DNA from: Candidatus Eisenbergiella merdipullorum
GTDB lineage: Bacteria > Bacillota > Clostridia > Lachnospirales > Lachnospiraceae
Length of the DNA stretch: 55,577 nucleotides
Reading direction: 5' to 3'
Assembly: GCA_019118445.1 (NCBI GenBank)
Contig: DWYY01000158.1
Coordinates: 1 to 55,577, forward strand
Shown here: positions 3,420 to 49,763 of the stretch, one piece after another
Layout: each line of letters opens with the position of its first letter
Numbering within the stretch: the first letter of the stretch is position 1
The notes under the pieces: generated by a model
Told to the model about the DNA's origin: nothing
What the model saw: only the letters and a program-made list of their open reading frames with translations
The model's database searches: none
Translations under genes and position numbers: made by a program

Positions 3420-4409
3420 TCAGGCGTTCAGCGCCAGCAGTTCATCATAACGGTCATAGTTTCCATATTGTCTCCACAGGTCGTTCATCATTTCATAGCG
3501 GCTCAATGGCAGCCCTGTATAAGCACAGTTGGACGTGGAAAACACATATCCTCTTCCTGCAGCCATTCCCTCCCTGAGTGAACGCAATACATCCGCGCGG
3601 CATTCCTCCTCTGTTCCGGTCTGCAGCAGTCCGCAATTCACATTTCCGATCAGAGCGATGTCATTTCCTATGATCTTGCGCACCTCCGGAATTGAAACGC
3701 CTCCCTGTGGATCCAGGGAATGAAAGGCGTCCGGCTTGCAGTCTGCCATCTGCTTCAGGATCGGCATGATATTTCCGTCGGTATGCTTGATCGTATAATA
3801 TCCCATTTTCCGATATTCCGCGATGGTTTCCTTCAGGAACGGGACCACCAGCTCATCAAATGCCTCCGGGCTGTAAAAGGGATTGGTATTAAAGCAGTAG
3901 TCCGCACAGAGGGCGAACCCATCCAGAAGATGGCCTCGCTCGTCGATGATCCTGGCCTGTTCCAGCGATCTTTCCATCCTCCGTTTTGTTTCATCATTTA
4001 ATTTTTCCGGTTCTTCAAACATCTGAATGGAAAATTCCATCATGGTATCTCCATCCGGAATGGACCAGGTCGGATCACCGTGCTTCATGATGAAAAATTC
4101 ATCTCCGCTCTTTTCCCGGATCAGTTCCAGAAGCCAGATCGTGCTTTCAATGTCAGCCGGATTCGGATGGATAAAGATCGCGCTGTGACCATATTTTCTT
4201 GCCGTGTCAATATACAACTGAGCCATTTCGTTCATATGCAGATTGCGTTCGTTCTGGCTCATCTGGTTCCACTGTTCATAAAACCGATGGGAAGGGTGAA
4301 CCTTTCCAAAAGCCTCCATCGTCAGGAAGAATACCAGTTCAAAGGTAGGCACCTGACCGCCGATCGGTTCACATTTCAGGGTTTTGATAAATCTCTCTCT
4401 GTGTGTCAT
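3420..4409 (-). CDS. UroD/MtaA-superfamily protein
   Basis: This 329-aa protein belongs to the uroporphyrinogen decarboxylase superfamily, in the branch that includes corrinoid-dependent methyltransferases (MtaA/CmuA type) rather than heme-pathway HemE. Candidate metal ligands are visible: His in KHTDGN, Cys in GNVNCG and Cys in TSNCAYTG, the His-Cys-Cys pattern of zinc-dependent methyl transfer members. The start at 4409 is chosen because GGAGGAGAG sits 2-10 bases upstream of it; an ATG at 4445 lacks an SD and would overlap the preceding gene. It is the last gene of the mannosidase run. No corrinoid protein or partner methyltransferase lies nearby, so its substrate is unknown; a demethylation role on glycans is only speculation. 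Confidence 0.8.
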   Translation of the reverse strand: MTHRERFIKTLKCEPIGGQVPTFELVFFLTMEAFGKVHPSHRFYEQWNQMSQNERNLHMNEMAQLYIDTARKYGHSAIFIHPNPADIESTIWLLELIREKSGDEFFIMKHGDPTWSIPDGDTMMEFSIQMFEEPEKLNDETKRRMERSLEQARIIDERGHLLDGFALCADYCFNTNPFYSPEAFDELVVPFLKETIAEYRKMGYYTIKHTDGNIMPILKQMADCKPDAFHSLDPQGGVSIPEVRKIIGNDIALIGNVNCGLLQTGTEEECRADVLRSLREGMAAGRGYVFSTSNCAYTGLPLSRYEMMNDLWRQYGNYDRYDELLALNA

Positions 4410-4441
4410 TTTCTCTCCTCCTGCTGCAATGTATTTATGGT

Positions 4442-7003
4442 TCATATCCCTGTTTTTGAAATAACAGCTTCCTCCACATTAAATGCCCCTATCCGAACGG
4501 AAATGAGCTTAGGATCTTCACAATACAAACGTATCTTTGTTCTCTCTCCCGGAAGCAGATACAGATAATTATCAGAAAAATACAGATAGCCGCTTTCCCT
4601 GGTCTCTCCTTCTCCCGCATGCGCATCTTCCAGCTTCAGCCCTGCCGCCGTCTGACCCCCCATATTGCGAAGCTCCAGGATCCATCCCTCAAAAGACGGG
4701 ACGATCTGCGCTTTGACTTCAGTCTTTGGCAGACAGGTAAGCGGTGCCAGCGTAGTTTTAGTAAAGCAGTACCGGTTCGCCGCCATCGTTTCTCCGGATT
4801 CATCACATGCGTCCAGAAGCAGATAAAATATTTCGCTTGAGATCTCTTTGGAAGGACAGCGGAGCTTCCCTGCGCAGACGGCTTTTTCCGCCTCCTGCTT
4901 CTTCCAGCCGCAGCTCAGCTCCTCCTGTGCATAGAGGCATCCATCTTGTCCTACAAGCCTGACAAGGATCCGGGCCGGTCTGCGGCCCTCTTCTGTGGAC
5001 TGCCAGAAAATATGTGTTTCAAAAACCTCCTTATCCTTCCATGTCTGCGAAGCGAATTCCGCCGTTACCACATCCTGCGCATAAGCTTTTTTGATTCCAT
5101 AATAAGCGGGTTTGGGCTCTGCATAATAATCTACGCTACAGGTACATGTATTGTTCGGATAGGGTTCATTGAACTGCCAGGGGAATGTACCACTACAGGA
5201 AAGAGCTCTTCTCCGGTTGGCCTCCACCGCATATTTCAGTCCTTCATATTGAAGGAACTGGCTTGCCCGCACCACTGTTCCGATATCTGAAAGCACACCG
5301 CCAAAGCATTCCTGAAGCAGCGGGTAATTATTCCACCAGGATCCTCTGTGAAAATAGTATTCATTCTCTCTGGACGGAGGCCACAGATGCTCCTTTTTCA
5401 TGTTTTTCAACAGGGCGTATTCGTTTGTCATTCCTTCCACGCCAAACTCGCTGGAAAGCAGAGAGGTGCCCGCATTATACAGTGTATACTGTGCCGTCAT
5501 GCCCTGATGCTCCCAGGGGCCATGTACATCGTGCAGGCCAAGTGGATCCTCTCTGATATTTTCCAATGTATTATTGAACATCCTTCCTGTAGGAGAGGAT
5601 TCCAGGAAATATCTGGAAGGGTCAAGATTTTTCACCTGTCCTGCCAAAATGCTGATCACCGGCACCTCCATGGAGATCATGCGGTTTCCCGGACCGGATA
5701 ATTCATTGCCGCCGCCCCATATGGCAAGCGCAGGATGGTGCTTCTTTTCCGGTATGATCCATTCCGCCTCTCTGCGCATCAGTTCCAGGAATTCCGGGTC
5801 CTGGGAAGGTTCATTTTCAATCCCTGAGCTGGACTGGATAAATTCCTGCCAGATCAGAATACCGTTTTCATCACAGAAATCGTAAAATTCCTCCCTCTCG
5901 ATCAGACCGCCTCCCCAGACACGCAGACAGTTGACATGCGCCTGTTTTGCCAAAAGGAGGAGACGGCGCAGCTTTTCCGGCCGTTTTCGTCCGTACATAA
6001 CATCAATGGGCACCCAGTTATATCCCTTGAGATAAATTTTTCTTCCATTGATACAGGCTGTATATGGTCTGGCCGTTGTATCTTCCGTCTCATTCGGCAC
6101 AAATTTCAGATCCCGGATACCGAAAGAAATGTATCTCTCATCTGTATCCTCCTCTTTCCCCTCTGTCACACCGGCAGTCAGATGAAGGAAATATATCGGC
6201 TGTTCTCCATATCCGTTCGGCCACCACAGCTCAGGGTCTTTCACCGTTAAACGGAAAGCCGCTTTATCGCCGAAAACGGGGACTTCCTGCCAGGAGACAG
6301 CCACCCCATTCCGCAGGATCTCCGCTCTGACCCGCTGCGTTCCCTCCGCCACGACCGTTCCTTCTACAGAAGCCGTTGTAAGGCTTCCATTCAGGCTGAC
6401 TTCAAAATCCGGGCTGGACAAACGAACCTTACCCGTAATTTCCAGCCACACGTCCTTCCAGATCCCCATGTGGATCATCCGCGGGCAAAAATCCCACCAA
6501 TAGGTCATCCGGCTTTTATGCGTCTTCACATAACGCGTTTTGCTCACCTGACACTGTTCATCCGGCGCTTTATTCAATACGACTGCCAGCAGGTTCCTCT
6601 TTCCGGTTTCCAGCAGACCTGTCACGTCAAAAACGGCAGGCGTATACATGCTGTGATGCTCTCCGATTAGCCGATCGTTCAGAAAAATAAGCGCATCATA
6701 ATCCACCCCATCCAGATGGAGATACACGCGCTTTCCCTCCAAGTTTTCAGAAATTGGAAATTCCTTCCGATAGATCCAGGTACGTTCCGGGATCCATTCC
6801 GCCAAAAGGCTGTTTTTCTCAAAATAAGGATCGGGGATCTCTCCGCAGCGGTACATATCATCCGTAACGCTTCCCGGTACAGATGCCGGTTTCCACCAGC
6901 GGATATCCCTGGTTTCCCTTTTTTCCCCATCTCTCCAGATCCAGTCTTCTCCCACATAATGCTTGCAGGCCCAATCATTTCCATTTAAACTGATTTTTTT
7001 CAA
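4442..7003 (-). CDS. GH2 beta-mannosidase (TTG start)
   Basis: This 853-aa protein is predicted to remove terminal beta-linked mannose from the non-reducing end of oligosaccharides in the cytoplasm. It opens with the GH2 beta-mannosidase signature (LNGNDW, then VPGSV and a DPYFEKNSL-type segment). The jelly-roll and immunoglobulin-like domains are followed by the (beta/alpha)8 domain. The acid/base Glu is in WGGGNELSG and the nucleophile Glu in SSEFGVEGM. The start is TTG at 7003, not ATG: AAGAGGGA lies 7 bases upstream and the protein begins in alignment with the family. No signal peptide is present. It follows the MATE gene by 25 bp and is a paralogue of the GH2 at 29253-31934. Confidence 0.92.
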   Translation of the reverse strand: MKKISLNGNDWACKHYVGEDWIWRDGEKRETRDIRWWKPASVPGSVTDDMYRCGEIPDPYFEKNSLLAEWIPERTWIYRKEFPISENLEGKRVYLHLDGVDYDALIFLNDRLIGEHHSMYTPAVFDVTGLLETGKRNLLAVVLNKAPDEQCQVSKTRYVKTHKSRMTYWWDFCPRMIHMGIWKDVWLEITGKVRLSSPDFEVSLNGSLTTASVEGTVVAEGTQRVRAEILRNGVAVSWQEVPVFGDKAAFRLTVKDPELWWPNGYGEQPIYFLHLTAGVTEGKEEDTDERYISFGIRDLKFVPNETEDTTARPYTACINGRKIYLKGYNWVPIDVMYGRKRPEKLRRLLLLAKQAHVNCLRVWGGGLIEREEFYDFCDENGILIWQEFIQSSSGIENEPSQDPEFLELMRREAEWIIPEKKHHPALAIWGGGNELSGPGNRMISMEVPVISILAGQVKNLDPSRYFLESSPTGRMFNNTLENIREDPLGLHDVHGPWEHQGMTAQYTLYNAGTSLLSSEFGVEGMTNEYALLKNMKKEHLWPPSRENEYYFHRGSWWNNYPLLQECFGGVLSDIGTVVRASQFLQYEGLKYAVEANRRRALSCSGTFPWQFNEPYPNNTCTCSVDYYAEPKPAYYGIKKAYAQDVVTAEFASQTWKDKEVFETHIFWQSTEEGRRPARILVRLVGQDGCLYAQEELSCGWKKQEAEKAVCAGKLRCPSKEISSEIFYLLLDACDESGETMAANRYCFTKTTLAPLTCLPKTEVKAQIVPSFEGWILELRNMGGQTAAGLKLEDAHAGEGETRESGYLYFSDNYLYLLPGERTKIRLYCEDPKLISVRIGAFNVEEAVISKTGI

Positions 7004-7028
7004 TTTTTGATCCCTCTTTTTTGTCTCT

Positions 7029-8378
7029 CTAACCTTTCGGCTCCCTCATCCATTTCCCGCTGGAAATCCTCCATACATAGCAGAACGACCGAACGACCCA
7101 GTCCACTCCCATCGCCGCCCAGATCCCCATCAAGCCCATATGAAATCCCAGCACAAACAGGTAACTGAAGCCGATACGGAAAATCCACATGCATCCCAGC
7201 GAGATCACCATGGTATAGGTTGCGTCCATTGCGGCTCTGAGCGCATTAGGCAGAGCAAAGCCGGACGGATAAAAAAGCATGGCGCAGACAGAATGAAAAA
7301 TGATCACCTGTGCTGCCAGCACGCGCGTTGCCTCCGTTACCTGATACATCCCCGCGATCTGCCCCGACAGCAGGATGATCCCCACGTTCAGAATAGCCAT
7401 AAACAGATAGGCATACCCCATCAGCTTCTTTACATAGTATTTTGCCTGGCTGACTGCAGATGCCCCCAGCGCCTGTCCGACAACTGTGATCATGGCGATG
7501 CCGATTGCCGAGGAAGGAATCACCGCAACTCCGGCTACCGTTCCGACAATGGCGTTTGCCGCGATCGCTGTGGTTCCAAGTCCGGCCACCAGACTCTGTA
7601 CCAGGATTTTCCCCACCTGAAAAATGCAGTTATCCATCCCGGTGGGGATTCCTACTTTGAAGATGTCTCTTAATATGTTCCAGTCCAGGCGCAGGCGGAT
7701 CCTTCTGCTGTAATGCAGCGGATGCCTGTCGCTGCGGAGAATGCAGAACATGACGCAGGCTCCAAGGATCCGGGAGACCAGGGTGGAAAATGCTGCGCCA
7801 AAGACACCCAGACCGAAACCGAATATCAAAATGGCGTTTCCGATGATATTGACAATATTCATCATCAGGGAGATCCACATGGTGATTTTGGAATTTCCCA
7901 TAGCCCTGCTCAGGCCTGCACTCGCATTATAAATACCGAGGAATGGAAAGGACAACGCGGTAAGATAAAAATAGGTTACCGCGTTCTCCATCACATCCGC
8001 TTCCACCTTTCCAAAAATCAGGGAAAGGATCTGGCGGTTCAAGGCAATTGAAAACATCGCGATCACCAGCGCTATCCCGGTTACGCACAACAGAAGCTGA
8101 TCCGCTGTCCTTCCAGCCTCCTCCTGTCTTTTCTCTCCCAGACGGCGCGCTGCCATTACCGCCCCGCCCGTCGCAAGAGAATTGAAGGTGTTGATAAGCA
8201 GGATATTAATGGAATCTACCAACGAGATCCCGGATACTGCGGCTTCCCCGGCGCTGGAAACCATAACAGAATCAGCCATTCCCACAGTCAGCCCCAACAC
8301 CTGTTCCAGTACCAGAGGGATGATCAGGGCACGCAGCTGCCGGCCTGTAAAGGAAAAGACTGTCTTGTCCTCTTCCAT
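7029..8378 (-). CDS. MATE-family efflux transporter
   Basis: This 449-aa integral membrane protein has about twelve hydrophobic segments arranged as two six-helix halves. It carries the MATE-type N-terminal pattern (IPLVLEQVLGLTVGMADSVMV) and a matching pattern near residue 240. Family members exchange Na+ or H+ for drugs or metabolites. The start at 8378 is preferred over 8420, because GGGGAGA lies upstream and the protein then begins like its relatives. It is embedded between GH3 and GH2 glycosidase genes, 25-50 bp from each, so it is probably co-transcribed with them. Whether it exports a toxic aglycone, a sugar product or something unrelated cannot be told. Confidence 0.9.
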   Translation of the reverse strand: MEEDKTVFSFTGRQLRALIIPLVLEQVLGLTVGMADSVMVSSAGEAAVSGISLVDSINILLINTFNSLATGGAVMAARRLGEKRQEEAGRTADQLLLCVTGIALVIAMFSIALNRQILSLIFGKVEADVMENAVTYFYLTALSFPFLGIYNASAGLSRAMGNSKITMWISLMMNIVNIIGNAILIFGFGLGVFGAAFSTLVSRILGACVMFCILRSDRHPLHYSRRIRLRLDWNILRDIFKVGIPTGMDNCIFQVGKILVQSLVAGLGTTAIAANAIVGTVAGVAVIPSSAIGIAMITVVGQALGASAVSQAKYYVKKLMGYAYLFMAILNVGIILLSGQIAGMYQVTEATRVLAAQVIIFHSVCAMLFYPSGFALPNALRAAMDATYTMVISLGCMWIFRIGFSYLFVLGFHMGLMGIWAAMGVDWVVRSFCYVWRISSGKWMREPKG

Positions 8379-8427
8379 AATGTCTGTTTCTCCCCTATAC
8401 CCGGATAAAGCTCCGGACAATTTCTTT

Positions 8428-10548
8428 TTATTGTAAGATCACTTCCCGACTGACCGTCTTTCTTCCCATCAGCCCTTCACTGTAAGCATCCGGCTGACAT
8501 CCTCCCGCGGATACCCGGAATGCTCCGCCTTCATATTTTCTCTCTCCATCCGCGCAGATCACCTGAAACTGTTCCGGTTCGATCTGAAAGGCCAGCTTCT
8601 TTTCTTCACCAGGCGCGAGGTGTACACGCGCGAAGCTGCACAGCTTATGATGAGGCACCCGTTCACTGGCTTCCAGGTCCTTCAGATAAATCTGGACCAC
8701 CTCATCTCCTTCCATTTTCCCGATATTCTTTACGACCACGCTGCCGCAAAGCTCTTCTCCCGCCAGGATCTTTTCCTTTTCCAGGCAGAGATCCCGATAT
8801 TCAAATTCCGTATAGGACAGGCCGAAGCCAAATGGAAAGAGCGGGTCCTCCTTCAGGAATTTATAGGTTCTTCCCTCCATGGAATAATCTGTGAACTCCG
8901 GAAGGCTGTTGTCATTATGATAGAAGGTCACTGGAAGCCTGCCGGAAGGGCTGTAGTTCCCTGCGAGGAGATCCGCCACCGCCTTTCCTCCCTGTCCGCC
9001 CGGATACCAGGCCTGAATGATGGCATCTGCATGTTCATTTCCGTAATCAAAATCAATGGCGCTTCCGGAAAGATTGACAAGAACGACCGGCGTATTTCTC
9101 TCACATGCCGTCTTTACCATCTCCCTCTGGCACTGGGGCAGATACAGATCCTTCTTATCGCCGCCAAGCTCCTTGTCGGCCATTTCCTCACCTTCGATCG
9201 TCTCATCCATACCAGTTACCAGGATCACAACATCGGCCTCATCCGTCATTCCCTTTACTTCTGCCAGACGATCTCCCGCATATCCGGGATCCTCCAGCTT
9301 GTATTCATAAAGATGAGAGCCTTCGCTGTAGTTTACCCTTGCCTCAGGAAATTCTGCGCGGATCCCTTCCAGAACTGTAATGTACTGATTGGCGGTCCCA
9401 TGGTAGTTTCCTTCCAGTGCCACAATGGAATTGGCATTAGGGCCGATCACCGCGATTTTTTTGATCTTCTTTTTATCCAGCGGCAGGATTCCATTATTCT
9501 TCAAAAGTACCAGGGATTCCCTGGCCATCCTCAGGTTGAGCTCCTGATGCTCAGGACAGTCTACGGCATCCATCCCGATGCTGTCAAACGGCGTCTTTTT
9601 GTCGAACATGCCCAGCTTCATCCTGGTGGTCAGAAGCCGTGTGGCTGATGTCCGGATCATTTCCTCCGTGATCAGTCCTTCCTCATACGCTTTCATCAGA
9701 TAAGCATACATATTTCCGCAGTTCAGGTCACAGCCGTTCTTCAATGCAAGAGCGACGGATTCCACCGGCGTTTCCGTGATGCCATGATGCAGATGGAAAT
9801 CAGAAATGGCCCAGCAGTCGGAAGTCACATAGCCTTTAAATCCCCATTTCCCGCGCAGCAGATCTACCAGCAGGGCTTTGCTTCCACAGCAGGGTTCTCC
9901 GTTGGTCCTGTTATAAGCTCCCATAAACCCTTCCACGCCGCAGGCTGCCAGCGCATGGAAAGCCGGAAGATAGGTCTCTTCCATATCCTGCAAAGTTACC
10001 TGCGCATCAAACTCATGCCGGAGCTTCTCCGGTCCGCTGTGAACTGCAAAATGTTTGGCACAGGCTGCCGTTTTCAGATATCTGGGATCATCTCCCTGCA
10101 GTCCCTCCACGAATGCCACTCCCATCCGTGAGGTCAGAAAGGGATCCTCCCCATAGGTTTCCTGTCCTCTTCCCCATCTTGGGTCGCGAAAAATGTTTAC
10201 ATTCGGCGACCAGAATGTGATCCCCTTATAAATGCCATAGTCCTCATACTTCTGATACATGTTATATTTTGCCCGGCCTTCTGTGGAAATAGCGTCCGCC
10301 ACCTCCTTCAAAAGCTCTGGATCAAACGATGCGGCCATTCCGATCGCCTGCGGAAATACCGTTGCCATTCCACATCTCGCCACCCCATGCAGCGCCTCAT
10401 TCCACCAATTGTAAAATGGGATCCCCACATGTTCCACCTTGGCGGCTCCAAAAAGCATCTGCGAAGCACATTCCTCCAGTGTCATATGCTCCACCATATC
10501 TCTGGCACGCTCTTCAAACGACAAACTTTCATCCTGATATTTTTCCAT
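8428..10548 (-). CDS. GH3 beta-glycosidase
   Basis: This 706-aa retaining glycosidase has the three GH3 domains: an N-terminal (alpha/beta)8 barrel (to about residue 310), an alpha/beta sandwich, and a C-terminal fibronectin III-like domain. The nucleophile Asp lies in GYVTSDCWAI. Substrate-contact motifs such as WWNEALHGVA and FRDPRWGRGQETYGEDP resemble the beta-xylosidase/beta-glucosidase branch. The start at 10548 has the SD GAGGAAAAT; the ATG at 10578 would overlap nagA and lacks an SD. There is no signal peptide, so the enzyme is cytoplasmic. Its exact substrate (beta-glucoside, beta-xyloside or beta-N-acetylglucosaminide) is open. Confidence 0.93.
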   Translation of the reverse strand: MEKYQDESLSFEERARDMVEHMTLEECASQMLFGAAKVEHVGIPFYNWWNEALHGVARCGMATVFPQAIGMAASFDPELLKEVADAISTEGRAKYNMYQKYEDYGIYKGITFWSPNVNIFRDPRWGRGQETYGEDPFLTSRMGVAFVEGLQGDDPRYLKTAACAKHFAVHSGPEKLRHEFDAQVTLQDMEETYLPAFHALAACGVEGFMGAYNRTNGEPCCGSKALLVDLLRGKWGFKGYVTSDCWAISDFHLHHGITETPVESVALALKNGCDLNCGNMYAYLMKAYEEGLITEEMIRTSATRLLTTRMKLGMFDKKTPFDSIGMDAVDCPEHQELNLRMARESLVLLKNNGILPLDKKKIKKIAVIGPNANSIVALEGNYHGTANQYITVLEGIRAEFPEARVNYSEGSHLYEYKLEDPGYAGDRLAEVKGMTDEADVVILVTGMDETIEGEEMADKELGGDKKDLYLPQCQREMVKTACERNTPVVLVNLSGSAIDFDYGNEHADAIIQAWYPGGQGGKAVADLLAGNYSPSGRLPVTFYHNDNSLPEFTDYSMEGRTYKFLKEDPLFPFGFGLSYTEFEYRDLCLEKEKILAGEELCGSVVVKNIGKMEGDEVVQIYLKDLEASERVPHHKLCSFARVHLAPGEEKKLAFQIEPEQFQVICADGERKYEGGAFRVSAGGCQPDAYSEGLMGRKTVSREVILQ

Positions 10549-10555
10549 ATTTTCC

Positions 10556-11686
10556 TCATTTCTGTACGGCTTTTCCACCGATATACACCTGTTTCAGCTC
10601 CATATCCGGCGTAACCACCAGCATATCCGCCAGAAGCCCCTTTCGGATATCTCCGATTTCCGTTTCCAGTCCCATCGCTCTTGCCGGGTTCAGGCATGCC
10701 GCCGCGATCGCCTTTTCAGGTGAAATCCCAAAAGAGATCACATTCCGGCACTCTTCAAAAACATTACTGACGGAGCAGGCCAGGGTCCCATCTGCCAGTG
10801 CAGCTCTTTTTCCCTTAACGTGGACCTCCAGTCCCCCCAGACTGTACACACCGTCTCCCATCCCGGCCGCACTCAGGGAATCCGAGACGATACAAAGCTT
10901 TTCCGCATTAGAAGCGAATGTCATGCGCACCACGGAAGGATGTACATGAATGCCGTCGCAGATCAGCTCAGCCCATACCCTTCTGTCATTCACCATTCCC
11001 ACCACGCCCGGCTCTCTGTGCCTAAGCTCATTCATCGCGTTAAAAAGATGGGTGACATGGTCAGCCCCGGCATCCACCGCCAGGTTCGCGGTCTCATAAT
11101 CCGCGCTTGTATGCGCGATAGAAATCTTTTTTCTGCCCGCATAGGTACGGATAAAATCCATCGCACCGTCCAGCGTTGGATCCAGATCCACCAGACGGAT
11201 ATTCCCTCCCGAACAGGCATCCAGTTCTTCAAAGAAGGCACAGTCCGGTTTTTTCAGATATGCGGGATCGTGACAGCCCTTTTTATCAGGCCCCAGAAAG
11301 GGGCCTTCCATATTGATCCCCCAGATCCTTGCCCCTTCGCCCTCCGCTTCCATGGCTCCCCGGATGCGCTCCATCATCTCCCGGCTATAGTTTTCTTCCA
11401 TCGTCATGGTCGTTGCGAGCAGTGATGTCACTCCGCATTTTGCATATGAGCTTAGGATCCGTACCAGCTCCCCGGACGGAGAATCCGAAAAATCCGCTCC
11501 CGCCCTTCCATGGGTGTGTACGTCAAAGAAGCCGGGAAGCAGCCATTTTCCGGTGAGGTCACATACGGCTTCTCCGGATCTGGCGGAAAGCTCTCTTCCC
11601 ATTTCCGAAATCCGGTCTCCTGTTACGCGCACATCCATCCTTCTGAATCTTCCTGTACAAAAGACAGTTCCACCCTGAAACAGCAT
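10556..11686 (-). CDS. nagA: N-acetylglucosamine-6-phosphate deacetylase
   Basis: Hydrolyses GlcNAc-6-phosphate to glucosamine-6-phosphate and acetate in amino-sugar catabolism. The 376-aa amidohydrolase shows the metal ligands DVHTHG (His57, His59), NMEGPFLG, AHTSADYETA and THLFNAMNEL, plus CDGIHVHP and the catalytic Asp in IVSDSLSAAGMGDG. The start at 11686 is chosen from the SD GAGAGGTGG. It sits between GH38 and GH3 genes, with gaps of 11 and 7 bp, so it is translated from the same mRNA. No nagB is present in the window. Its presence implies that the glycan handled by this operon releases N-acetylhexosamine. Confidence 0.93.
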   Translation of the reverse strand: MLFQGGTVFCTGRFRRMDVRVTGDRISEMGRELSARSGEAVCDLTGKWLLPGFFDVHTHGRAGADFSDSPSGELVRILSSYAKCGVTSLLATTMTMEENYSREMMERIRGAMEAEGEGARIWGINMEGPFLGPDKKGCHDPAYLKKPDCAFFEELDACSGGNIRLVDLDPTLDGAMDFIRTYAGRKKISIAHTSADYETANLAVDAGADHVTHLFNAMNELRHREPGVVGMVNDRRVWAELICDGIHVHPSVVRMTFASNAEKLCIVSDSLSAAGMGDGVYSLGGLEVHVKGKRAALADGTLACSVSNVFEECRNVISFGISPEKAIAAACLNPARAMGLETEIGDIRKGLLADMLVVTPDMELKQVYIGGKAVQK

Positions 11687-11697
11687 CGTTCCACCTC

Positions 11698-14148: not shown

Positions 14149-14173
14149 TTTCCGTCTATCTCCATTTCTGCTC

Positions 14174-16703: not shown

Positions 16704-16732
16704 ATTTTATCATTTATTGTTCATTTTTTCAA
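16704..16732 (-). promoter_or_regulatory. Promoter of the second mannosidase run
   Basis: A -35 TTGAAA (16732-16727) and a -10 TAAAAT (16709-16704) are separated by exactly 17 bp in an AT-rich 130-bp gap. It would drive the genes from 16645 down to 3420. Inverted repeats cover the -35 and the spacer. Confidence 0.75.
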
Positions 16733-22861: not shown

Positions 22862-22884
22862 GTCAGTCCTCCTTTTTCTTTTTT

Positions 22885-24348: not shown

Positions 24349-24350
24349 GT

Positions 24351-35159: not shown

Positions 35160-35210
35160 TCCCGTTTCTCCCTGTTCTATCATCTTTCATCGTTCAGAAA
35201 ATCTCAAAGC

Positions 35211-36817: not shown

Positions 36818-36836
36818 AGCCGTATTCCTTTCCTTT

Positions 36837-38149: not shown

Positions 38150-38167
38150 CATGTCAAAATAAATCGT

Positions 38168-40591: not shown

Positions 40592-40668
40592 CTCCAGATT
40601 CCTTTCCTTATTTTTCTTAATAGATATGAATTACAGCCGCTTTCTCCTGCCGCGCTTCCTTTTGCCCT

Positions 40669-41475: not shown

Positions 41476-41499
41476 GTCTCCCTCCATACTTCTTCCGCA

Positions 41500-42300: not shown

Positions 42301-42319
42301 GACACATCCCTCACCTTTC

Positions 42320-43291
42320 TTAGGCGTACAGACGCGCAATGCTCTCTTCCAGCGGCACGGCGTCGATTTCCAGATCCGCCGCCGGAAAAGCTTCGCACAG
42401 CCTGCGGATCAGCCCTGTGGTTTCCCCCGCCGCGCACTCCAGAGACGCCTTCAGAGGCTCCCATTCCCGCACCGCTCCGAATCCGTCCAGCTCTTCCTTT
42501 GCGACCGGACGGTCCCAGGTTACCTTTACCACCCTCCTGTCGGAAAAAATATCCCGGATATGCTCCAGCGTCCCGTCATAAACCAGGCTTCCGTGGCTGA
42601 TCACCATGGTGCGCCGGCACAGCTCCTCCACATCCTTCAGGTAATGGCTGGTCAGAAGCATCGTGGCCCCGTATTTCCGATTGTATTCCTTTAAAAATTC
42701 CCTGATATTGCTCTGGGCGATAAAATCCAGGCCGATGGTAGGCTCGTCCAGAAAGATCACCCTCGGACGATGCAAAAGGGCAGCGATCATCTCCATCTTC
42801 ATCCTTTCCCCAAGGGAAAGGCGTCTGACCTGCACCCTTAAAAATTCCTCCACGCCGAACAGGCTGACCAGCTCGTCCAGCGTTTTCTTATACTCCTCAT
42901 CAGATAATTCATAAATGTCTTTATTCAGTTCAAAGGAATCGATCGCCGGAAGGTTCAGCCATAGCTGGGACTTCTGTCCGGCGACATAAGCAAACTGCTT
43001 TTTGAACGCTTTCTTTCTCTCCCACGGAATATAGCCGTTCACATGTACTCCCCCAGAAGTGGGATAGAGGATCCCGGAAAGCATTTTTATGGTCGTCGTC
43101 TTTCCAGCTCCGTTCGGCCCCAGGAATCCTACAATCTCACCCTCCGGAATGCGAAAAGAGATGTCCTTTACCGCATGCCGGATGTTCTGCGTCCTGTGAA
43201 ACAGGTTTTTGACCGAGCTCTTCATGCCCGCATCCTTTTCATAATAGGTGAAATCCCGACAGAGATGTTCCACCACGATTCCCCGTTCCAT
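42320..43291 (-). CDS. ABC exporter ATP-binding protein
   Basis: This 323-aa ATPase has Walker A GPNGAGKTT at 58-66, signature LSLGERMKME, Walker B VIFLDEPTIGLD and the H-loop LTSHYLKD. It also has the C-terminal ~100-residue extension of the DrrA-type exporter group. It works with the two adjacent ABC-2 permeases. It is not the missing ATPase of the sugar importer, whose ATPases have the MalK/UgpC layout with an OB-fold tail. The Lys-rich insert (KSSVKNLFHR) before Walker A is characteristic of this exporter group. SD GAGGGAGAA. It lies 31 bp after the aldolase. Confidence 0.92.
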   Translation of the reverse strand: MERGIVVEHLCRDFTYYEKDAGMKSSVKNLFHRTQNIRHAVKDISFRIPEGEIVGFLGPNGAGKTTTIKMLSGILYPTSGGVHVNGYIPWERKKAFKKQFAYVAGQKSQLWLNLPAIDSFELNKDIYELSDEEYKKTLDELVSLFGVEEFLRVQVRRLSLGERMKMEMIAALLHRPRVIFLDEPTIGLDFIAQSNIREFLKEYNRKYGATMLLTSHYLKDVEELCRRTMVISHGSLVYDGTLEHIRDIFSDRRVVKVTWDRPVAKEELDGFGAVREWEPLKASLECAAGETTGLIRRLCEAFPAADLEIDAVPLEESIARLYA

Positions 43292-43322
43292 AATTCTCCC
43301 TCATTTACCGTGTCTGGTCGAC

Positions 43323-44279
43323 TCAGTTCTGCGTGCCTGCCATGCTTTCTTCGGTCCTGAAATAAACGGTGGAAAAATGTTTGACAATCTCCGGCGCTTT
43401 TCCTGCGCTTAACAGATAATTCTTAATTTTATCCTCTACCAGCAGCCTTACCGCTTCCTGGCATTTTTCGATCACATCCTCCGGATAGGCATTCAGCTCC
43501 GCTTCCGTCATGTGTCCTTCTCTTCCCACGACCGCCAGCATCGCCAGTTCCAGATCTGTCGCGATATTGACCTTGCTCACGCCTCCGGAGGGCATCTGAG
43601 CCGCCTTCGTCACCATCTCGCTGGGAACGCCTGATCCCCCGTGCAGGACAAGCGGCGTATCCGTCAGCTTATTGATGGCCTCCAGGATGGCATAGTCTAC
43701 CTTAGGCTGCCTTACCGTATAGACGCCATGCGCTGTTCCAACGGATACCGCCAGGCAGTCCACATTCGTTTCCTCGCAAAAGGACTTTGCTTCCTGAGGA
43801 TCCGTATACATCTCTTCATCCTTATCCGTCTCCACGAAATCCGTGGTCCCGATCTTTCCCAGCTCCGCTTCCACCGTGATGTTTCTCGGATGAGCCATGG
43901 CGACCACCTCTTTGGTCACCGCAACATTGTCCGCATATTCCATCTCAGACGCATCGATCATCACGGAGGTAAATCCCGCGTCCATTGCTTCACGGATCAC
44001 GTCCAGCGTCTTGGTATGATCCAGATGAAGTGCCAGGGGTACCTGGGGATCCAGCTCCTTCACCACACGGTAGAATTCATCCGCGAATTCCTTCACTCCT
44101 ACCTTGTGCCGGATCACTTCCTTCTCTGAGAGCTGTACGATCACCGGGGAATTGGTATTGACCGCCGCCTGAATGATCGGTTTGATCAGTTTCGTATACC
44201 TTGCGGAAAAAGAGCCCACCGCATATCTGTTTTCCCTTGCATCCTTTAAAAGTTCCGTTAAATTCTGTACGTTAGACAT
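43323..44279 (-). CDS. Class II ketose-bisphosphate aldolase
   Basis: This 318-aa zinc aldolase is of the fructose/tagatose-bisphosphate family. Zinc and active-site motifs are visible: ALHLDHTKTLD, VEAELGKIG, VSVGTAHGVY, LHGGSGVPSE and SKVNIATDLE. It would cleave a ketose-bisphosphate to dihydroxyacetone phosphate and an aldehyde phosphate. The start at 44279 overlaps the FGGY kinase stop by 8 bp with AAGGAGA upstream, which indicates translational coupling. The kinase probably makes its substrate, or a phosphoketose one step before it. A tagatose-bisphosphate or a less usual ketose is equally possible. Confidence 0.92.
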   Translation of the reverse strand: MSNVQNLTELLKDARENRYAVGSFSARYTKLIKPIIQAAVNTNSPVIVQLSEKEVIRHKVGVKEFADEFYRVVKELDPQVPLALHLDHTKTLDVIREAMDAGFTSVMIDASEMEYADNVAVTKEVVAMAHPRNITVEAELGKIGTTDFVETDKDEEMYTDPQEAKSFCEETNVDCLAVSVGTAHGVYTVRQPKVDYAILEAINKLTDTPLVLHGGSGVPSEMVTKAAQMPSGGVSKVNIATDLELAMLAVVGREGHMTEAELNAYPEDVIEKCQEAVRLLVEDKIKNYLLSAGKAPEIVKHFSTVYFRTEESMAGTQN

Positions 44280-45774
44280 TCTGCACATCTCCTTTTTTAC
44301 AAAGCTTCACTAATATATCCACCATCGGCAAATACCGCTCCTTCCAGATTCTCTGATAAGCCTCGCTTCTTTCCGGATCCGGCATATAAGTTTCTCTCTT
44401 ATTCAGGCAAGCCTGCAGAAATCGTTCCGCGGCCTCCTTTCCTCTGTTTTTCTGTAAAAACAAAGCGGCGGCGCCGCACAATGTTGCCTCCGGCATGTCC
44501 GGCACTATCACATTTTTCTTCAGGATATCCGCCTTTAGCTGCATCATGACATGGTTATGGACGGAACCTCCCGCACATAAGATCCGGCTGTCCTGAATTC
44601 CATGCTCCTTTCTCAGGATTTCCATCAGCCAGGCGGACTGGTACTGGATCCCTTCCATCATTCCCTTCAGGACCGTCCAGCCGTCCATTTCCTCATGAAG
44701 TCCTATCAAGGTCCCACGCGCAGAAGCTTCATACAGGGGGCTTCCCATCCCCGTCAGAAAAGGGAAATACAAAAGCCCGGTAGGCTGCATTTCCAGCGTT
44801 TCCAGGCCCTGATTCATATTTTCATAGGAAAGCCCGGAAAGCTGCAGCTTCGTCCGGAACCATTCCACGGAATGCCCCGAGGACGGCACGTTCGCCATGA
44901 AAAAATATCCCCCGTCCACATAGGGACCATACAGCAGCCCTGTATCCATGCTGATTTTCAGGGAACCGCCCGTACAGCCGCCGGGTACCGGCAGCCGCAG
45001 TCTCCCCACATAGGTTTCCGATGTCCCCGCGCTGTCGCAGATCCCCTCTTCCTCCTGATGAAGAAGCGCAAAAGCGGCACAGATGTGGTCATGTCCCGCG
45101 ATCGCCACCGGAATCTTCCTTCCGTCCGCGCTCAGATAGGTTCCCACCACGCTGCCGGAAGGAACCACCTCTGGAAAATTGGACAGATTCAAACCGTATT
45201 CCTGAATCCTCCCGGCATCCCAGCGCTTCCGTCCGATATCGTACACATAGGTTCTCGCTGCAAATCCGGGCTCCGTGACCAGGCGTCCGGTCAGCTTCCA
45301 GGCAATATAATCGCACATGGAAAGCCATACCGCGTCATCCTTTTCCATTTTTGTTTCTTCCAGCAGCCACAGGAATTTGTATATCCCATACTTATAGCTG
45401 TTTCTCAGCCCTGTTTTGGAGAATACTTCCTTTTCCCTTTCCTCTGTCATCCCTCCTGCCAGCCTGGCAGTCCTTCCGTCAAACCAGGGCAGTATGGCGG
45501 TCCGCTCCTTTCCGGTCCTTCTGTCCACGATCAGGCCGGCTTCCGCCATCCCCGTGATGCTGATTCCCGCCACATGTATATCCCGGCATTCCAACAGGCT
45601 TTCCATCTGAGAGCGCACGATCTTCCAAACCCGCTCCGGACGATATACGTTTCCATATCCGTCAGGATCCAGCGGCGTATCCTCTTTCCTGCTTCCCAGT
45701 ACCACGCCGTTTTCATCAAATAGCTGGGCCTTCATATGTGTGGTTCCTATGTCAATTCCTATGATCGCATCCAT
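44272..45774 (-). CDS. FGGY-family carbohydrate kinase
   Basis: This 500-aa kinase has the phosphate-binding start IGIDIGTTHMKAQLF, a central IAGHDHICAAF segment, and the C-terminal nucleotide motif LCAGGSVHNHVMMQLKAD. The family phosphorylates ketopentoses, glycerol, gluconate and similar sugars. The xylulokinase-like layout suits a keto-sugar. The start at 45774 has AAGAGGCGG; the ATG at 45822 overlaps the neighbouring gene and was rejected. It lies 44 bp after the racemase-like gene and is coupled to the aldolase downstream. The exact sugar is unknown. Confidence 0.92.
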   Translation of the reverse strand: MDAIIGIDIGTTHMKAQLFDENGVVLGSRKEDTPLDPDGYGNVYRPERVWKIVRSQMESLLECRDIHVAGISITGMAEAGLIVDRRTGKERTAILPWFDGRTARLAGGMTEEREKEVFSKTGLRNSYKYGIYKFLWLLEETKMEKDDAVWLSMCDYIAWKLTGRLVTEPGFAARTYVYDIGRKRWDAGRIQEYGLNLSNFPEVVPSGSVVGTYLSADGRKIPVAIAGHDHICAAFALLHQEEEGICDSAGTSETYVGRLRLPVPGGCTGGSLKISMDTGLLYGPYVDGGYFFMANVPSSGHSVEWFRTKLQLSGLSYENMNQGLETLEMQPTGLLYFPFLTGMGSPLYEASARGTLIGLHEEMDGWTVLKGMMEGIQYQSAWLMEILRKEHGIQDSRILCAGGSVHNHVMMQLKADILKKNVIVPDMPEATLCGAAALFLQKNRGKEAAERFLQACLNKRETYMPDPERSEAYQRIWKERYLPMVDILVKLCKKGDVQNV

Positions 45775-45818
45775 TGATCCGCCTCTTATATCTTTTTCCA
45801 GTCCGTCCGCATTCCGTA

Positions 45819-46472
45819 TCAAAGCCCCAGGACTTTTCCCAGCTTCTCGATTCCCAGCTCAGGACTTGTCAGCACCTTTTCCCCATCTTTTCCGGACAGC
45901 TTCACCGCGTCCGCCATGGATGCCTGCGCCAGCACGATCACATCAGAGGTGTCAATATACCGATTTACAGCTTCCGCGATCTTCGCGTCATGCACCTCTT
46001 TCTGTCCATCCATCAGGGCGCTGTAGGCTCCTTCCACCAGCACCGTATTGATCGTGACCTTTTTTCCCGCCGCCGCAGCCTTGCGCTCCACCAGGTTTAC
46101 TGTTGGATTCAGCGTGGAAGCCAGTGTGGCAAACACGCTGATCACGGTTCCCATCTCTACGGCCCTTTCACACATGGCCTCGTCAATCCGGAATACCGGG
46201 ATGGAGAGCATCTGGTCCGCTTCCTCCGCGAATTCTCCCACTGTGGAGCAGGCTGATAACACCGCGTCCACACCCAGCTTTTCCAGGATCTTCGCATAGG
46301 AGATCCACCGTTCCTTCACATAATCCACATTATGCAGCTCTCTCATATCACCCAGGATGGAGTCATCCAGGATATTGACGATCTCCGTGCCCGGATATTT
46401 TTTCCTGACCAGCCCGTTCAGGCTGGAAATGGTTGCAGACGTTGTATGTATGATTCCGATTTTCTTTCCCAT
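45819..46472 (-). CDS. Asp/Glu racemase-superfamily protein
   Basis: This 217-aa protein has the two-domain layout of the Asp/Glu/hydantoin racemase superfamily. The first catalytic cysteine is present (LSACSTVGE, Cys75). The second, normally in a DVIVLxCT-like motif, is replaced in VIVLAQASMAD by Ala184. With one cysteine it cannot act by the standard two-base racemase mechanism. Similar single-cysteine members occur in sugar-utilisation operons with no established function. It starts one base after the importer permease stop, so it belongs to the same transcript. Sugar epimerisation or a regulatory role are guesses. Confidence 0.75.
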   Translation of the reverse strand: MGKKIGIIHTTSATISSLNGLVRKKYPGTEIVNILDDSILGDMRELHNVDYVKERWISYAKILEKLGVDAVLSACSTVGEFAEEADQMLSIPVFRIDEAMCERAVEMGTVISVFATLASTLNPTVNLVERKAAAAGKKVTINTVLVEGAYSALMDGQKEVHDAKIAEAVNRYIDTSDVIVLAQASMADAVKLSGKDGEKVLTSPELGIEKLGKVLGL

Positions 46473-46473
46473 C

Positions 46474-47310
46474 TTACTTTACAGCCCCTCCTACGTTCAT
46501 TCCTTCGATGAAATAATTCTGGAAGCAGAAGAACAGAACCAGGATTGGGATCATGGAGAGGAAGGATACTGCCATCAGATAATTCCATTCTGTATAGCCC
46601 TGTCCCTTAAACACCTGAAGGCCGAGCTGAAGCGTATACATCTTTCTGTCGCTCAGATAAAGCAGAGGGCCCTGGAAATCACTCCATGAACCTTTAAACG
46701 AGATCAGCGCAATCGTCGCCATTACAGGTTTTACCAGCGGCATCATCAGTTTTCCCCATATATAGAAATGGCCCGCTCCATCCATCTTCGCAGCTTCCAT
46801 TAATTCATTCGGTATAGTCCGGTAAAACTGCCGCATCATAAAAATATGAAACGCATTTCCGAAAAAGGCCGGGACGATGAGCGGAAGATATGTATTGACC
46901 CATCCTATTTTTGAGAAAATAACATAAGTAGGAACCAGAGTGATAAAACTCGGGATCATCATCGTCGCAAGGATTAAAGTAAAAAGAAAATTCTTTCCTG
47001 CGAATTCAATCTTGGCAAAACCATAGGAAACAAATGAATTTACGAAAACGCTTCCTATGATATTGAAAAAGACAATGATCAACGTATTAATTGTATATCT
47101 GGTAAACGGAGCTTTATTCCACGCAATTATGAAATTTTCAAACAAAGGTTTTTCCGGCAACAGTTTAGGCGGATACATTGCAACTTCCGGGGCCGATTTC
47201 AGCGCAGTGCTTATCATCCATAAAATGGGGAATAGAATGATCACAGCCCCTAATGACAGAATAATAAACAGAATTGTATTTGTAATTTTCCGTTTTCTGG
47301 ATTTACTCAT
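46474..47310 (-). CDS. Sugar ABC importer permease (MalG type)
   Basis: This 278-aa membrane protein has six predicted transmembrane helices and the EAA loop ELMEAAKMDGAGHFYIWGKLMMPLVKP that docks to the ATPase. It is the second permease of a carbohydrate-uptake-1 family importer. The start at 47310 overlaps the MalF-type stop by 8 bp with GGAGGGCGG upstream. No importer ATPase follows; such systems commonly share an MsmX/UgpC-type ATPase encoded elsewhere. The C-terminal end (EGMNVGGAVK) is the family-typical finish. Confidence 0.93.
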   Translation of the reverse strand: MSKSRKRKITNTILFIILSLGAVIILFPILWMISTALKSAPEVAMYPPKLLPEKPLFENFIIAWNKAPFTRYTINTLIIVFFNIIGSVFVNSFVSYGFAKIEFAGKNFLFTLILATMMIPSFITLVPTYVIFSKIGWVNTYLPLIVPAFFGNAFHIFMMRQFYRTIPNELMEAAKMDGAGHFYIWGKLMMPLVKPVMATIALISFKGSWSDFQGPLLYLSDRKMYTLQLGLQVFKGQGYTEWNYLMAVSFLSMIPILVLFFCFQNYFIEGMNVGGAVK

Positions 47311-48232
47311 TTCCGCCCTCCTCATAATATACCCACTTCTTGGAAACCTTATTATTGATGATGGTCAAGATCATGACAACCACAAAAAGGAACCAGCACA
47401 GGGCGTTGGCATATCCGGTATCAAAATTTTTAAACGCCTGATTCCAGACATGCAGATTGTAAAACAGTAATGATCCCGCAGGTTTTCCAGTACCGTCTCC
47501 GGAGAAAATATATCCTTCCTGAAATACCTGAAATGCTCCGATTATACCAATCGTCAGATTATAGAAAATAATGGGAGACAACAGTGGAACCGTAATTTTG
47601 GTAAACTGCTTCCATCCGCTCGCTCCATCCAGACTTGCAGCTTCATAATAATCCTGGGGAATGCTCTGAAGCCTCGCCAGATACAGAAGCATCTGACCGC
47701 CTAGTCCCCACAGATGCATCAGGATAATAGAAGGTTTCGTCCAGTCAGGATCCGTCAGCCAGGACGGCCCGTCAATTCCGATCAGCCCAAGCGCCGTGTT
47801 TACCAGGCCACTCTTAGGATCCAGCATCAGCATCCACAGAAAGTAGGTTCCGACGCCAACCATAATGGAAGGCAAATAATAAATAGTCCGAAACGTTCTT
47901 AACCCAAATACAGATTTGTTCAAGATCACGGCGACGATTACTCCCCCTATGGTAACCAGAGGGATATTAAGCACCGCATAATATAACGTATTCCCAAGTG
48001 CCTTATAAAAAAGCTGATCTTTAAAAAACATTCTTTCATAGTTTGCCAGACCATTAAAATCAATCTTGAGCATATTATAGTCTGCAAAACTCGTTACCAG
48101 TGAAAAAATCATCGGGCCCAATGTAAGTCCGCACAGGCCGATCAGCCAGGGCAGAATAAATATGTAGCCATATACATTTTCTCGACCTTTTCTGGTTTTT
48201 ATCCCGAGTGCGTTCAGAATCCTTCCAAACAT
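47303..48232 (-). CDS. Sugar ABC importer permease (MalF type)
   Basis: This 309-aa permease has six transmembrane segments and the EAA loop YYEAASLDGASGWKQFTKITVPLLSP. With the MalG-type protein it forms the membrane channel for the lipoprotein encoded upstream. The start at 48232 is preferred (AAGAAGGGAC upstream); the ATG at 48295 would place coding sequence across the stem-loop described at 48258-48293. It lacks the long MalF-specific periplasmic loop, as is usual in Gram-positive oligosaccharide importers. Confidence 0.93.
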   Translation of the reverse strand: MFGRILNALGIKTRKGRENVYGYIFILPWLIGLCGLTLGPMIFSLVTSFADYNMLKIDFNGLANYERMFFKDQLFYKALGNTLYYAVLNIPLVTIGGVIVAVILNKSVFGLRTFRTIYYLPSIMVGVGTYFLWMLMLDPKSGLVNTALGLIGIDGPSWLTDPDWTKPSIILMHLWGLGGQMLLYLARLQSIPQDYYEAASLDGASGWKQFTKITVPLLSPIIFYNLTIGIIGAFQVFQEGYIFSGDGTGKPAGSLLFYNLHVWNQAFKNFDTGYANALCWFLFVVVMILTIINNKVSKKWVYYEEGGNE

Positions 48233-48257
48233 GTTCTGTCCCTTCTTTCCCTTATAA

Positions 48258-48293
48258 GGAAAGGCTCTTACCCCTATCAGGAAGAGCCTTTCC
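48258..48293 (-). repeat. Stem-loop between binding-protein and permease genes
   Basis: GGAAAGGCTCTTA and GAAGAGCCTTTCC (12 paired bases) flank a 10-nt loop. No U-tract follows on the minus strand. Such hairpins after sugar-binding-protein genes usually protect the upstream mRNA, allowing more binding protein than permease. Confidence 0.75.
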
Positions 48294-48309
48294 AAACCAT
48301 CATATCTTC

Positions 48310-49698
48310 TTATTCATGAGTGGCTATGAAATCCGCAAACGCCTGCTGCGCTCTGTCAAGAACCTCATCAGTCGGGGAAATTCCAAGCGTTCCTTCATCA
48401 ATAATCGGATTGATCACATCCTGATATCCTTTAATACTATTCGGAACAATCACTGTAGAGGTCTGCTCCAAAGCTTTTGCAATATCTGCAACCAGAGGCT
48501 TCTGGAAAAATTCAGAATCTTCGGTGAAATCATTTCTGCCGGAAAAATCTCCCAAATTCGTGCAAAGATAGTCCTGAACCTCATAGCTCGTCGCATATTT
48601 GATAAACTCATAAGCTCCTTCAGGATTCTTGGCTCCCTTGGGGATTTCCAGGACGAAGCCGCCGCCGTTCGCAGTATGACCATTTCCTTCCTTAAATTCT
48701 GGAAGAAGGATGACGCCGTAATTCAGATCCGGCGCAGACTGTGCCAGTGCAGCAGTATATGCGGAAGTCTGAACAACCATCGACATCGTTCCGGACGCAA
48801 ACGGATCTGCCATGCCCGAAGAGAATGCAGCGGACAACTCATCATAAGTAGACTGTCCATAATAATCCATCCAACTTCTCACCCACGCAAAAGCTTCCTT
48901 ATTCACATCAGAATTCACGGTAGGTTCGGCAGTGTCCGGATCAAACCAGCAAGGACCGCCATTTGCGTTAATCAGCCATGTATCTACGCCGCCGTTACCT
49001 ACAACAGGCATAAATCCAATTCTCGTCCACTCATCGCCATCCTGCACATCCAGTTTGTGGGCTGCCTCCCAGAGATCATCCCATGTCTGGATATCCTCCG
49101 GGCTGATGCCCGCTTCTTCAAAATGATCCTTGTTGTAATAAATAACACGCGTATCTACAGAGAACGGAAGCGCGTATACAGAACCATCATCACCGGTGCA
49201 AGCTTCCATGTACTGCTCATAAAAACCGCTAGTTACATCATCTGTCAAATACGCGTCGAGGGGCTCAACCTGTCCTTCCTGCGCACGGAACTTTACCTCT
49301 TCCATGCTGTTCGCCATAATGTCACAGGGATCTCCTGCCGCAATCTGTGCAATATTTTTGGTAAAAATATCACCAAACGGAATGTCTACATAGGTCACAT
49401 GGTACTTGCTCTGAGAAGCATTAAAATCCGAAACCATCTGATCAATATAAGGCTTCCTCGCATCACTGCTCCACCATGCCCAGAACTCCAGCTCGATCAC
49501 TTCTCCATTGTCTTCTGCAGCTGCCGCTTCTGTGGATGCGCTTTCTGCCGCCGTACTTTCTGCCGTTGTTTCAGCAGATGCCGCGCTGCTTGCCGGCGTC
49601 GTACTTTCGCTGGAAGTAGAGGTACTGCTTCCGCATCCTGCAAGGGTTGCAACCATCATGGCAGCAGTCAAAAGACCTGCCAACAGTTTCTTTTTCAT
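48310..49698 (-). CDS. Sugar-binding lipoprotein of ABC importer
   Basis: This 462-aa extracellular solute-binding protein (family 1) is anchored by a lipobox LAGC with lipidated Cys22. A Ser/Thr/Ala-rich flexible linker of about 40 residues follows, then the binding domain beginning VIELEFWAWW. It captures oligosaccharides outside the membrane and hands them to the two permeases downstream. It is the first gene after the promoter at 49735-49763. The start at 49698 is supported by GAGGAGGA at 8 bases; the ATG at 49704 is too close to it. Ligand identity is not predictable, but the operon content points to mannose- or galactose-containing oligosaccharides. Confidence 0.95.
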   Translation of the reverse strand: MKKKLLAGLLTAAMMVATLAGCGSSTSTSSESTTPASSAASAETTAESTAAESASTEAAAAEDNGEVIELEFWAWWSSDARKPYIDQMVSDFNASQSKYHVTYVDIPFGDIFTKNIAQIAAGDPCDIMANSMEEVKFRAQEGQVEPLDAYLTDDVTSGFYEQYMEACTGDDGSVYALPFSVDTRVIYYNKDHFEEAGISPEDIQTWDDLWEAAHKLDVQDGDEWTRIGFMPVVGNGGVDTWLINANGGPCWFDPDTAEPTVNSDVNKEAFAWVRSWMDYYGQSTYDELSAAFSSGMADPFASGTMSMVVQTSAYTAALAQSAPDLNYGVILLPEFKEGNGHTANGGGFVLEIPKGAKNPEGAYEFIKYATSYEVQDYLCTNLGDFSGRNDFTEDSEFFQKPLVADIAKALEQTSTVIVPNSIKGYQDVINPIIDEGTLGISPTDEVLDRAQQAFADFIATHE

Positions 49699-49734
49699 GT
49701 ACATATCCTCCTCTGTTTTTTTGATTGTGTCATC

Positions 49735-49763
49735 ATAATATCATATATGTTCATATTTTGCAA
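49735..49763 (-). promoter_or_regulatory. Promoter of the importer/glycosidase run
   Basis: TTGCAA (-35, 49763-49758), 17 bp, TATTAT (-10, 49740-49735). Start of transcription would be near 49728. It is the only good promoter seen for the 33-kb run ending at 16776. Phased repeats lie immediately upstream. Confidence 0.8.

Follow-up and report, generated by a model that had tools for sequence, protein, structure and literature searches.

A putative glycan-catabolic locus of Candidatus Eisenbergiella merdipullorum with four GH38 genes and a recurrent rare-sugar gene set

Overview of the Locus

We analysed a stretch of 55,577 nt (the window; coordinates are positions in it unless given for another genome) of contig DWYY01000158.1 (C89 of the bin) from Candidatus Eisenbergiella merdipullorum. 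The window carries a run of 29 genes at 3420–49704 (~46 kb), all on the minus strand, with a largest gap of 130 bp. This run is probably a catabolic locus that imports hetero-oligosaccharides and digests them in the cytoplasm, with a branch of lower-pathway genes for a further component. The less ordinary part of the locus is this recurrent rare-sugar set.

Gene families were assigned by Pfam scans of 40 open reading frames (ORFs) of the window, and NCBIfam models were used with their curated cut-offs. The enzyme content of the run comprises four GH38, two GH2, two GH36-family, one GH3, one sucrose-phosphorylase-type GH13, an N-acetylglucosamine-6-phosphate deacetylase (NagA) and a sulfatase. 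The run also encodes a single sugar ABC importer. The other 14 genes encode a MATE transporter, an FAD-dependent oxidoreductase (FADox), a double metallo-beta-lactamase (MBL)-fold protein, a URO-D-like protein, a ROK kinase, an SIS-domain protein, a DUF1537 kinase, an FGGY kinase, a class II ketose-bisphosphate aldolase (FBA), an Asp/Glu-racemase-fold protein (ASPrac), a class II aldolase-fold enzyme (ALDII1) and three ABC-2 exporter components. An earlier note on this DNA had listed the same hydrolases and importer, and Pfam and NCBIfam bore this inventory out. That note covered 15 genes of the run, namely 12 enzymes and three importer genes, and passed over the other 14, the lower-pathway set among them. 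The source bin has 3.70 Mb in 205 contigs.

Rare-Sugar Genes and the Second Locus Type

The lower-pathway set includes ASPrac (45819–46472, PF01177), an FGGY-family sugar kinase assigned by Pfam (44272–45822) and FBA (43323–44288), which scored 242 against the TIGR00167 cut-off of 215.6. A DUF1537 sugar-acid kinase (36837–38117), a GmhA-like SIS-domain sugar-phosphate isomerase (36179–36874), a ROK sugar kinase (35211–36290) and ALDII1, a class II aldolase/adducin-fold enzyme (26475–27092; Pfam, NCBIfam), are also present. The true starts of the SIS and ROK genes are probably internal. The nearest NCBIfam model of the DUF1537 protein is 3-oxo-tetronate kinase (253 bits vs. a cut-off of 350). 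Because this kinase occurs with an FGGY kinase and two aldolase types, the predicted gene set argues for a substrate that carries a ketose or sugar-acid component.

A second, paralogous locus type was found in five genomes of the same genus (G001, G003, G005, G011 and G012), with 31–74% identity to the window proteins. All five share the order GH13-FADox-GH38b-GH38d-ASPrac-FGGY-FBA-DUF1537-SIS-ALDII1. Beside it stand ROK in 5/5 genomes, GH2 in 4/5 (not seen in the G011 contig), the Raffinose_syn/GH36-type gene (GH36raf) in G001, G005 and G012, and GH3 in G001 and G011. The G011 locus lies on two contigs, joined here on the basis of two FGGY ends, and the second-type GH38d of G012 is split over two frames. 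G005 is strain CE91-St56 and G012 is Eisenbergiella tayi, both of the same genus as the source. In these two genomes, the first locus type (that of the window) retains FBA and ROK and is without ASPrac, FGGY, DUF1537, SIS, ALDII1 and GH36raf, and these missing genes sit in the second locus. A second locus with the same core order points to a putative substrate component beyond plain hexoses.

The structure model of ASPrac had a predicted local distance difference test (pLDDT) score of 94.0, and its best Foldseek matches were glutamate/aspartate racemases (best E 1.1e-7). Asp/Glu racemases of the two-cysteine type use two catalytic cysteines. In ASPrac, Cys75 was invariant in 30 of 30 aligned rows and the second racemase cysteine was absent, the site reading Q-x-S-M in all 30. 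Since only one cysteine is present, ordinary two-thiol racemisation by this protein appears unlikely. Relatives of ASPrac occur in 30 of the 299 family genomes. Within the genus, seven of the 13 genomes have one, and in six of these it lies inside first- or second-type loci. At L026:5342–12158, an ASPrac relative is accompanied by an FGGY kinase and an FBA. Three further proteins lie there: one of 474 aa with weak similarity to D-threonate kinase (41 bits) and, both below cut-off, an IolO-like epimerase and a sulfoquinovose-isomerase-like protein.

The Four GH38 Enzymes

The four GH38 genes, GH38a (11698–14148), GH38b (14174–16645), GH38c (31974–35183) and GH38d (38168–40591), were assigned by Pfam, motifs and a tree. 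GH38c is a long form with a C-terminal beta-sandwich domain. The N-terminal, middle and C-terminal GH38 domains exceeded the Pfam cut-offs in all four proteins. The HxD, D-x-FG[HY] and QFHD motifs were present in 4/4, so that the inactive catalytic residues considered in the earlier note were not found. We take HxD to be the metal motif and D-x-FG[HY] to contain the nucleophile.

Identity was 33–36% among GH38a, b and d, and 24–30% between these and GH38c. In a 40-row tree each of the four formed its own clade with orthologues elsewhere (support 100/99 or 100/100), which shows that they are not recent duplicates, and recent tandem duplication was rejected. The genome encodes six GH38 genes in total, and the two outside this locus (L002 and L003) fell outside the GH38a–d clades. 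GH38c was nearest to Ams1-type and other solved alpha-mannosidases, and GH38d was nearest to the same enzymes, more weakly; the poor structure model of GH38d (pLDDT 66.2) was not used. An assignment of GH38c as mannosylglycerate hydrolase was rejected (149.5 bits vs. a cut-off of 1138).

Other Hydrolases and Predicted Location

GH2a (4442–7003) was identified by Pfam and motifs, and GH2b (29253–31934) by Pfam; GH2b is beta-mannosidase-like, its nearest solved structures being beta-mannosidases. The two glutamate motifs are intact in both GH2 proteins, as are three motifs in GH13 (21428–22897), which scored 686.5 bits against the sucrose phosphorylase cut-off of 334.4. The two GH36-family proteins are a Melibiase-type protein (GH36mel, 24351–26450; Pfam, motifs) and GH36raf (27131–29191), which matches PF05691 and has KVD and SDDF motifs. 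GH3 (8428–10578; Pfam) has C-terminal and Fn3-like domains. NagA (10556–11701), an amidohydrolase, exceeded the nagA cut-off (272.8 vs. 225.65).

Cellular location was estimated from the 12-residue Kyte-Doolittle mean over the first 80 residues. The 11 hydrolase-type proteins (four GH38, two GH2, two GH36, GH3, GH13 and the sulfatase) gave values of at most 1.38, and none had a hydrophobic N-terminus in this simple scan; the lipoprotein-like binding protein reached 2.29. This agrees with the earlier claim that the hydrolases have no signal peptide. The sulfatase (22885–24354; Pfam, translation) contains CTPSRVSIMTG, which fits the Cys-type signature. An anaerobic sulfatase maturase (C153) is encoded in the genome (407 bits vs. 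a cut-off of 349). Given CTPSR in the translation and a maturase in the genome, a cytoplasmic sulfatase would be feasible.

Importer and Efflux Genes

The importer consists of a lipoprotein-like sugar-binding protein (48310–49704; PF01547/PF13416) with a hydrophobic N-terminus followed by Cys, a MalF-like permease (47303–48295) and a MalG-like permease (46474–47325), both PF00528. No importer-type ATPase was found within the 29-gene run. Its single ABC ATPase (42320–43291; best NCBIfam match drrA, below cut-off) adjoins two ABC-2 exporter membrane proteins (41500–42339 and 40669–41487, both PF06182). The importer families and the intact GH38 motifs support the earlier proposal of oligosaccharide import and stepwise degradation in the cytoplasm, and import followed by digestion is likely.

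The ABC-2 exporter lies between FBA and GH38d (40669–43291) only here among the loci compared. An exporter set of 80–84% identity stands at the end of the second-type locus in G011 (80% for the relative of 41500–42339), and the idea of an exporter unique to this genome was rejected. For the MATE efflux transporter (7029–8420; Pfam, NCBIfam), seven of the related loci contain orthologues (55–73%), namely G317, E. tayi, G318, G311, G315, G190 and L019. The transporter had no match at E 1e-20 in the examined pieces of CE91-St56, G316 and G319 (the G319 contig ends early).

Recurrence in Relatives

The GH38d search yielded 15 loci, of which 14 were close (69–88% identity) and one was distant (L020, ~40%). 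By GH38d, the nearest named genomes were those of E. tayi DSM 26961 and of Candidatus Eisenbergiella merdigallinarum, both at 86%. A GH38d relative at 88% came from a short contig in the metagenome-assembled genome of an uncultured member of the Lachnospiraceae. The 14 close loci include two pairs that appear near-identical, and L019 matches GH38d and GH38c only in part. FBA was present in 14/14, upstream of GH38d, as was GH38c at least in part; ROK was present in 13/14 and DUF1537 in 11/14. ASPrac and FGGY occurred in 11 of the 13 close loci with the upstream side covered, E. tayi and CE91-St56 being without both. Longer pieces from eight genomes contained GH2b, GH36raf, ALDII1, GH36mel, sulfatase, GH13, FADox, GH38b, GH38a, NagA, GH3, MATE and GH2a in varying order and completeness.

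Four strong GH38 matches per stretch were found in five of the ten genomes with orthologous loci (G311, G312, G316, G317 and G318), of which G312 and G318 look close to each other. G314, which resembles G316, had three GH38 and one 41-bit match, and CE91-St56 had four in one stretch (1632376–1644889). The locus is therefore not unique, since orthologous loci with four GH38 recur in other Lachnospiraceae. GH38 was detected at E 1e-20 in 64 of the 299 genomes, which were spread across the family. With at most eight candidates scored per genome, so that each genome has at least the GH38 number counted, only the source genome among the 299 had four GH38 within 60 kb of a contig. On this count, four-GH38 loci appear to be uncommon across the wider family.

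Next to the first-type locus of CE91-St56 (L052:3606–6853) are genes for a glycyl radical enzyme of 770 aa and its activase. The same pair follows GH2b in E. tayi and G317, with 72–84% identity to CE91-St56, and the G316 locus contains a more distant relative of the enzyme (39%). The enzyme fell below every specific NCBIfam cut-off, and a search of the source genome at E 1e-100 gave no match.

Unplaced and Neighbouring Genes

FADox (18682–21387) belongs to PF12831. The adjacent 610-aa protein (16776–18608; Pfam) consists of two MBL-fold halves and reached no NCBIfam cut-off. Among the loci compared, the double form was otherwise confined to G316 and the similar L014/L016, and single-domain MBL proteins adjoin GH38b in G318 and G317. 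The frame of the URO-D-like protein (3420–4445; Pfam) overlaps GH2a by 4 bases. This protein is distantly like corrinoid methyltransferases (45 bits vs. a cut-off of 244). None of the related loci compared contained a relative of it at E 1e-20, and a 26% relative lies in L076.

A DeoR-family regulator (50183–50941, plus strand; Pfam) is divergent from the run; several related loci place it likewise, upstream of their importer. The largest of the intergenic gaps contains a promoter-like site on the minus strand (16704–16732), and a second transcription start is possible there; the scanned stretch that includes it has 15 such sites vs. 14.2 in shuffles. Of three stretches, two had promoter-like counts similar to shuffles, and 41800–55577 exceeded them (22 vs. 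14.3, standard deviation 3.4). For terminator-like sites, all three stretches lay 1.3 to 1.5 standard deviations over shuffles. Past DeoR, 50999–55364 encodes a 2-hydroxyacid dehydrogenase, a ribulose-phosphate epimerase, a split transketolase and, scoring over its cut-off, an AraD-type epimerase. This is a separate, predicted pentose cluster, which was absent from the examined pieces of eight relatives.

Comparison with Known Systems

Import followed by cytoplasmic digestion is not a new mode. GH38-based digestion after ABC import was modelled in the cytoplasm of Streptococcus pneumoniae (PMC5215778), cytoplasmic alpha- and beta-mannosidases with ABC transporter genes were proposed for Cutibacterium acnes (PMC6160142), and Bifidobacterium longum is described as having three GH38 and GH125 in one operon (PMC10154615) and digesting high-mannose N-glycans intracellularly (PMC11758915). 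The locus of the window resembles the B. longum operon in having several GH38 together and in its predicted cytoplasmic digestion. It differs in having four GH38, no GH125, and additional GH36, GH13, sulfatase and rare-sugar genes. The S. pneumoniae NgtS-P1-P2 locus likewise combines an importer without its own ATPase, a cytoplasmic GH38 and a ROK kinase (PMC5215778). That system has a single GH38 with GH125, GH92, GH29, GH20C and a separate EndoD; none of these accessory families had a match in the window Pfam scans. The C. acnes GH38/GH5_18/GH20 locus has one GH38, and GH5_18 where this locus has GH2 (PMC6160142). A xanthan utilisation cluster carries a PL8 lyase and GH88 beside GH38 (PMC12827396). 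Neither PL8 nor GH88, nor a SusC/SusD pair, was found among the 40 window ORFs.

The lower set is like tetronate catabolism of the OtnK/OtnC type in pairing a DUF1537 kinase nearest to 3-oxo-tetronate kinase with an aldolase-II-fold protein. It is unlike that pathway in that both proteins score under the equivalog cut-offs and are here tied to glycosidases. No description of a four-GH38 locus was found in the open-licence literature searched. The novelty put forward in the earlier note is weaker than claimed there: the mode itself was already known and the loci recur in relatives.

Substrate and Alternative Explanations

The earlier note called the substrate mannose-rich glycans, which overstates the case, as this wording drew on family names only. 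Mannose alone does not account for the pair of GH36-type proteins, the sucrose-phosphorylase-type GH13 or the kinases and aldolases of the rare-sugar set. From the gene families, a mannose-containing glycan is a plausible substrate.

In the reading that we consider probable, a lipoprotein-dependent ABC importer, with an ATPase from elsewhere, would take in short hetero-oligosaccharides freed outside by other enzymes or organisms. Sugars would then be removed singly in the cytoplasm by four non-redundant GH38, two GH2 and two GH36-type enzymes, together with GH3, the GH13 phosphorylase, the sulfatase and NagA, whose families are read from sequence and whose activities are predicted. The chain would combine alpha-mannose-type and alpha-galactose/alpha-glucose-type linkages with beta-linked residues. 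Hexoses would pass through ROK, SIS and FBA to glycolysis, and the further component (probably either a ketose or a sugar acid) would enter the racemase-fold, FGGY, DUF1537 and class II aldolase set of the same unit. MATE, and here the ABC-2 pump, may expel unusable product. DeoR probably controls the locus.

Several observations weigh against this reading. ASPrac relatives elsewhere adjoin GH38 in only one of 20 contexts examined (of 32 non-own matches), and DUF1537, FGGY, SIS, ROK and ALDII1 are below every NCBIfam cut-off among the matches listed. In two genomes of other genera, the 20 kb examined around the second-type GH38d contained ROK-GH13-FADox-GH38b-GH38d-SIS without ASPrac, FGGY, FBA, DUF1537 and ALDII1 (G058), or only GH38d, SIS and ROK (G063). 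The lower set is also absent around four more distant GH38 (27–38%). A family assignment does not necessarily imply specificity for mannose, and the source bin is 77.8% complete.

A role in N-glycan breakdown like that in S. pneumoniae, C. acnes or B. longum, in which imported Man3–Man9–GlcNAc fragments would be cut by GH38, GH2 beta-mannosidase and NagA, is doubtful. An N-glycan locus is expected to hold an ABC sugar importer and a ROK kinase in one unit, and both are found here, sharing it with GH38, beta-mannosidase-like GH2 and NagA. The G317 and G316 counterparts of the locus contain GH20C-type genes, and the cytoplasmic mode is already on record in the papers cited above. However, GH20 was not among the 40 window ORFs scanned, and GH125 was found neither there nor in the 77.8% complete source genome. 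GH125 occurs in 8 of the 13 genus genomes, in CE91-St56 and E. tayi at positions away from this locus. GH92 occurs in 1/13 and GH85 in 0/13, GH18 not having been searched for. Because these usual companions (GH125, GH85, GH92) are missing, the locus was not filed as an N-glycan locus, and N-glycan specificity is unsupported. Nor would an N-glycan role account for GH13, the lower set or the pair of GH36-type proteins. A plant-seed locus for galactomannan fragments (GH36 and GH2), raffinose-family sugars (GH36 and GH13 phosphorylase) and plant high-mannose glycans (GH38) has in its favour two GH36-type proteins, a sucrose-phosphorylase-type GH13 over the curated cut-off and two GH2; in a comparison of GH2b with solved structures, beta-mannosidases came nearest. 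Such a locus is unlikely, as beta-mannans do not need four distinct GH38, and mannose, galactose, glucose and fructose do not need the lower set.

We regard as quite improbable that imported small-molecule glycosides are deglycosylated and the aglycone pumped out by MATE or the ABC-2 exporter. The MATE orthologues in seven related loci and the exporter of the same subunits beside the second-type locus in G011 fit this explanation, but the MATE gene is unmatched in the CE91-St56, G316 and G319 pieces, and GH38 enzymes are not known to release aglycones. Within the preferred reading of import and cytoplasmic digestion, we tentatively raise the possibility of a novel route, in which the GH38 a, b and d clades would act on a glycan with a rare ketose or sugar-acid unit and a new enzyme set would process that unit. 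The set, present in both locus types, would comprise a single-cysteine racemase-fold isomerase/lyase, FGGY, DUF1537, two aldolases, an FAD oxidoreductase and an MBL-fold hydrolase. No paper on a Lachnospiraceae route of that kind was found in the open-licence literature searched.

Significance

If the proposed reading is true, gut Lachnospiraceae would own a dedicated intracellular route for a mixed glycan. The recurrent lower-pathway genes would then be a direct handle on which sugar this glycan contains. The four co-occurring GH38 clades can be used for testing linkage specialisation.

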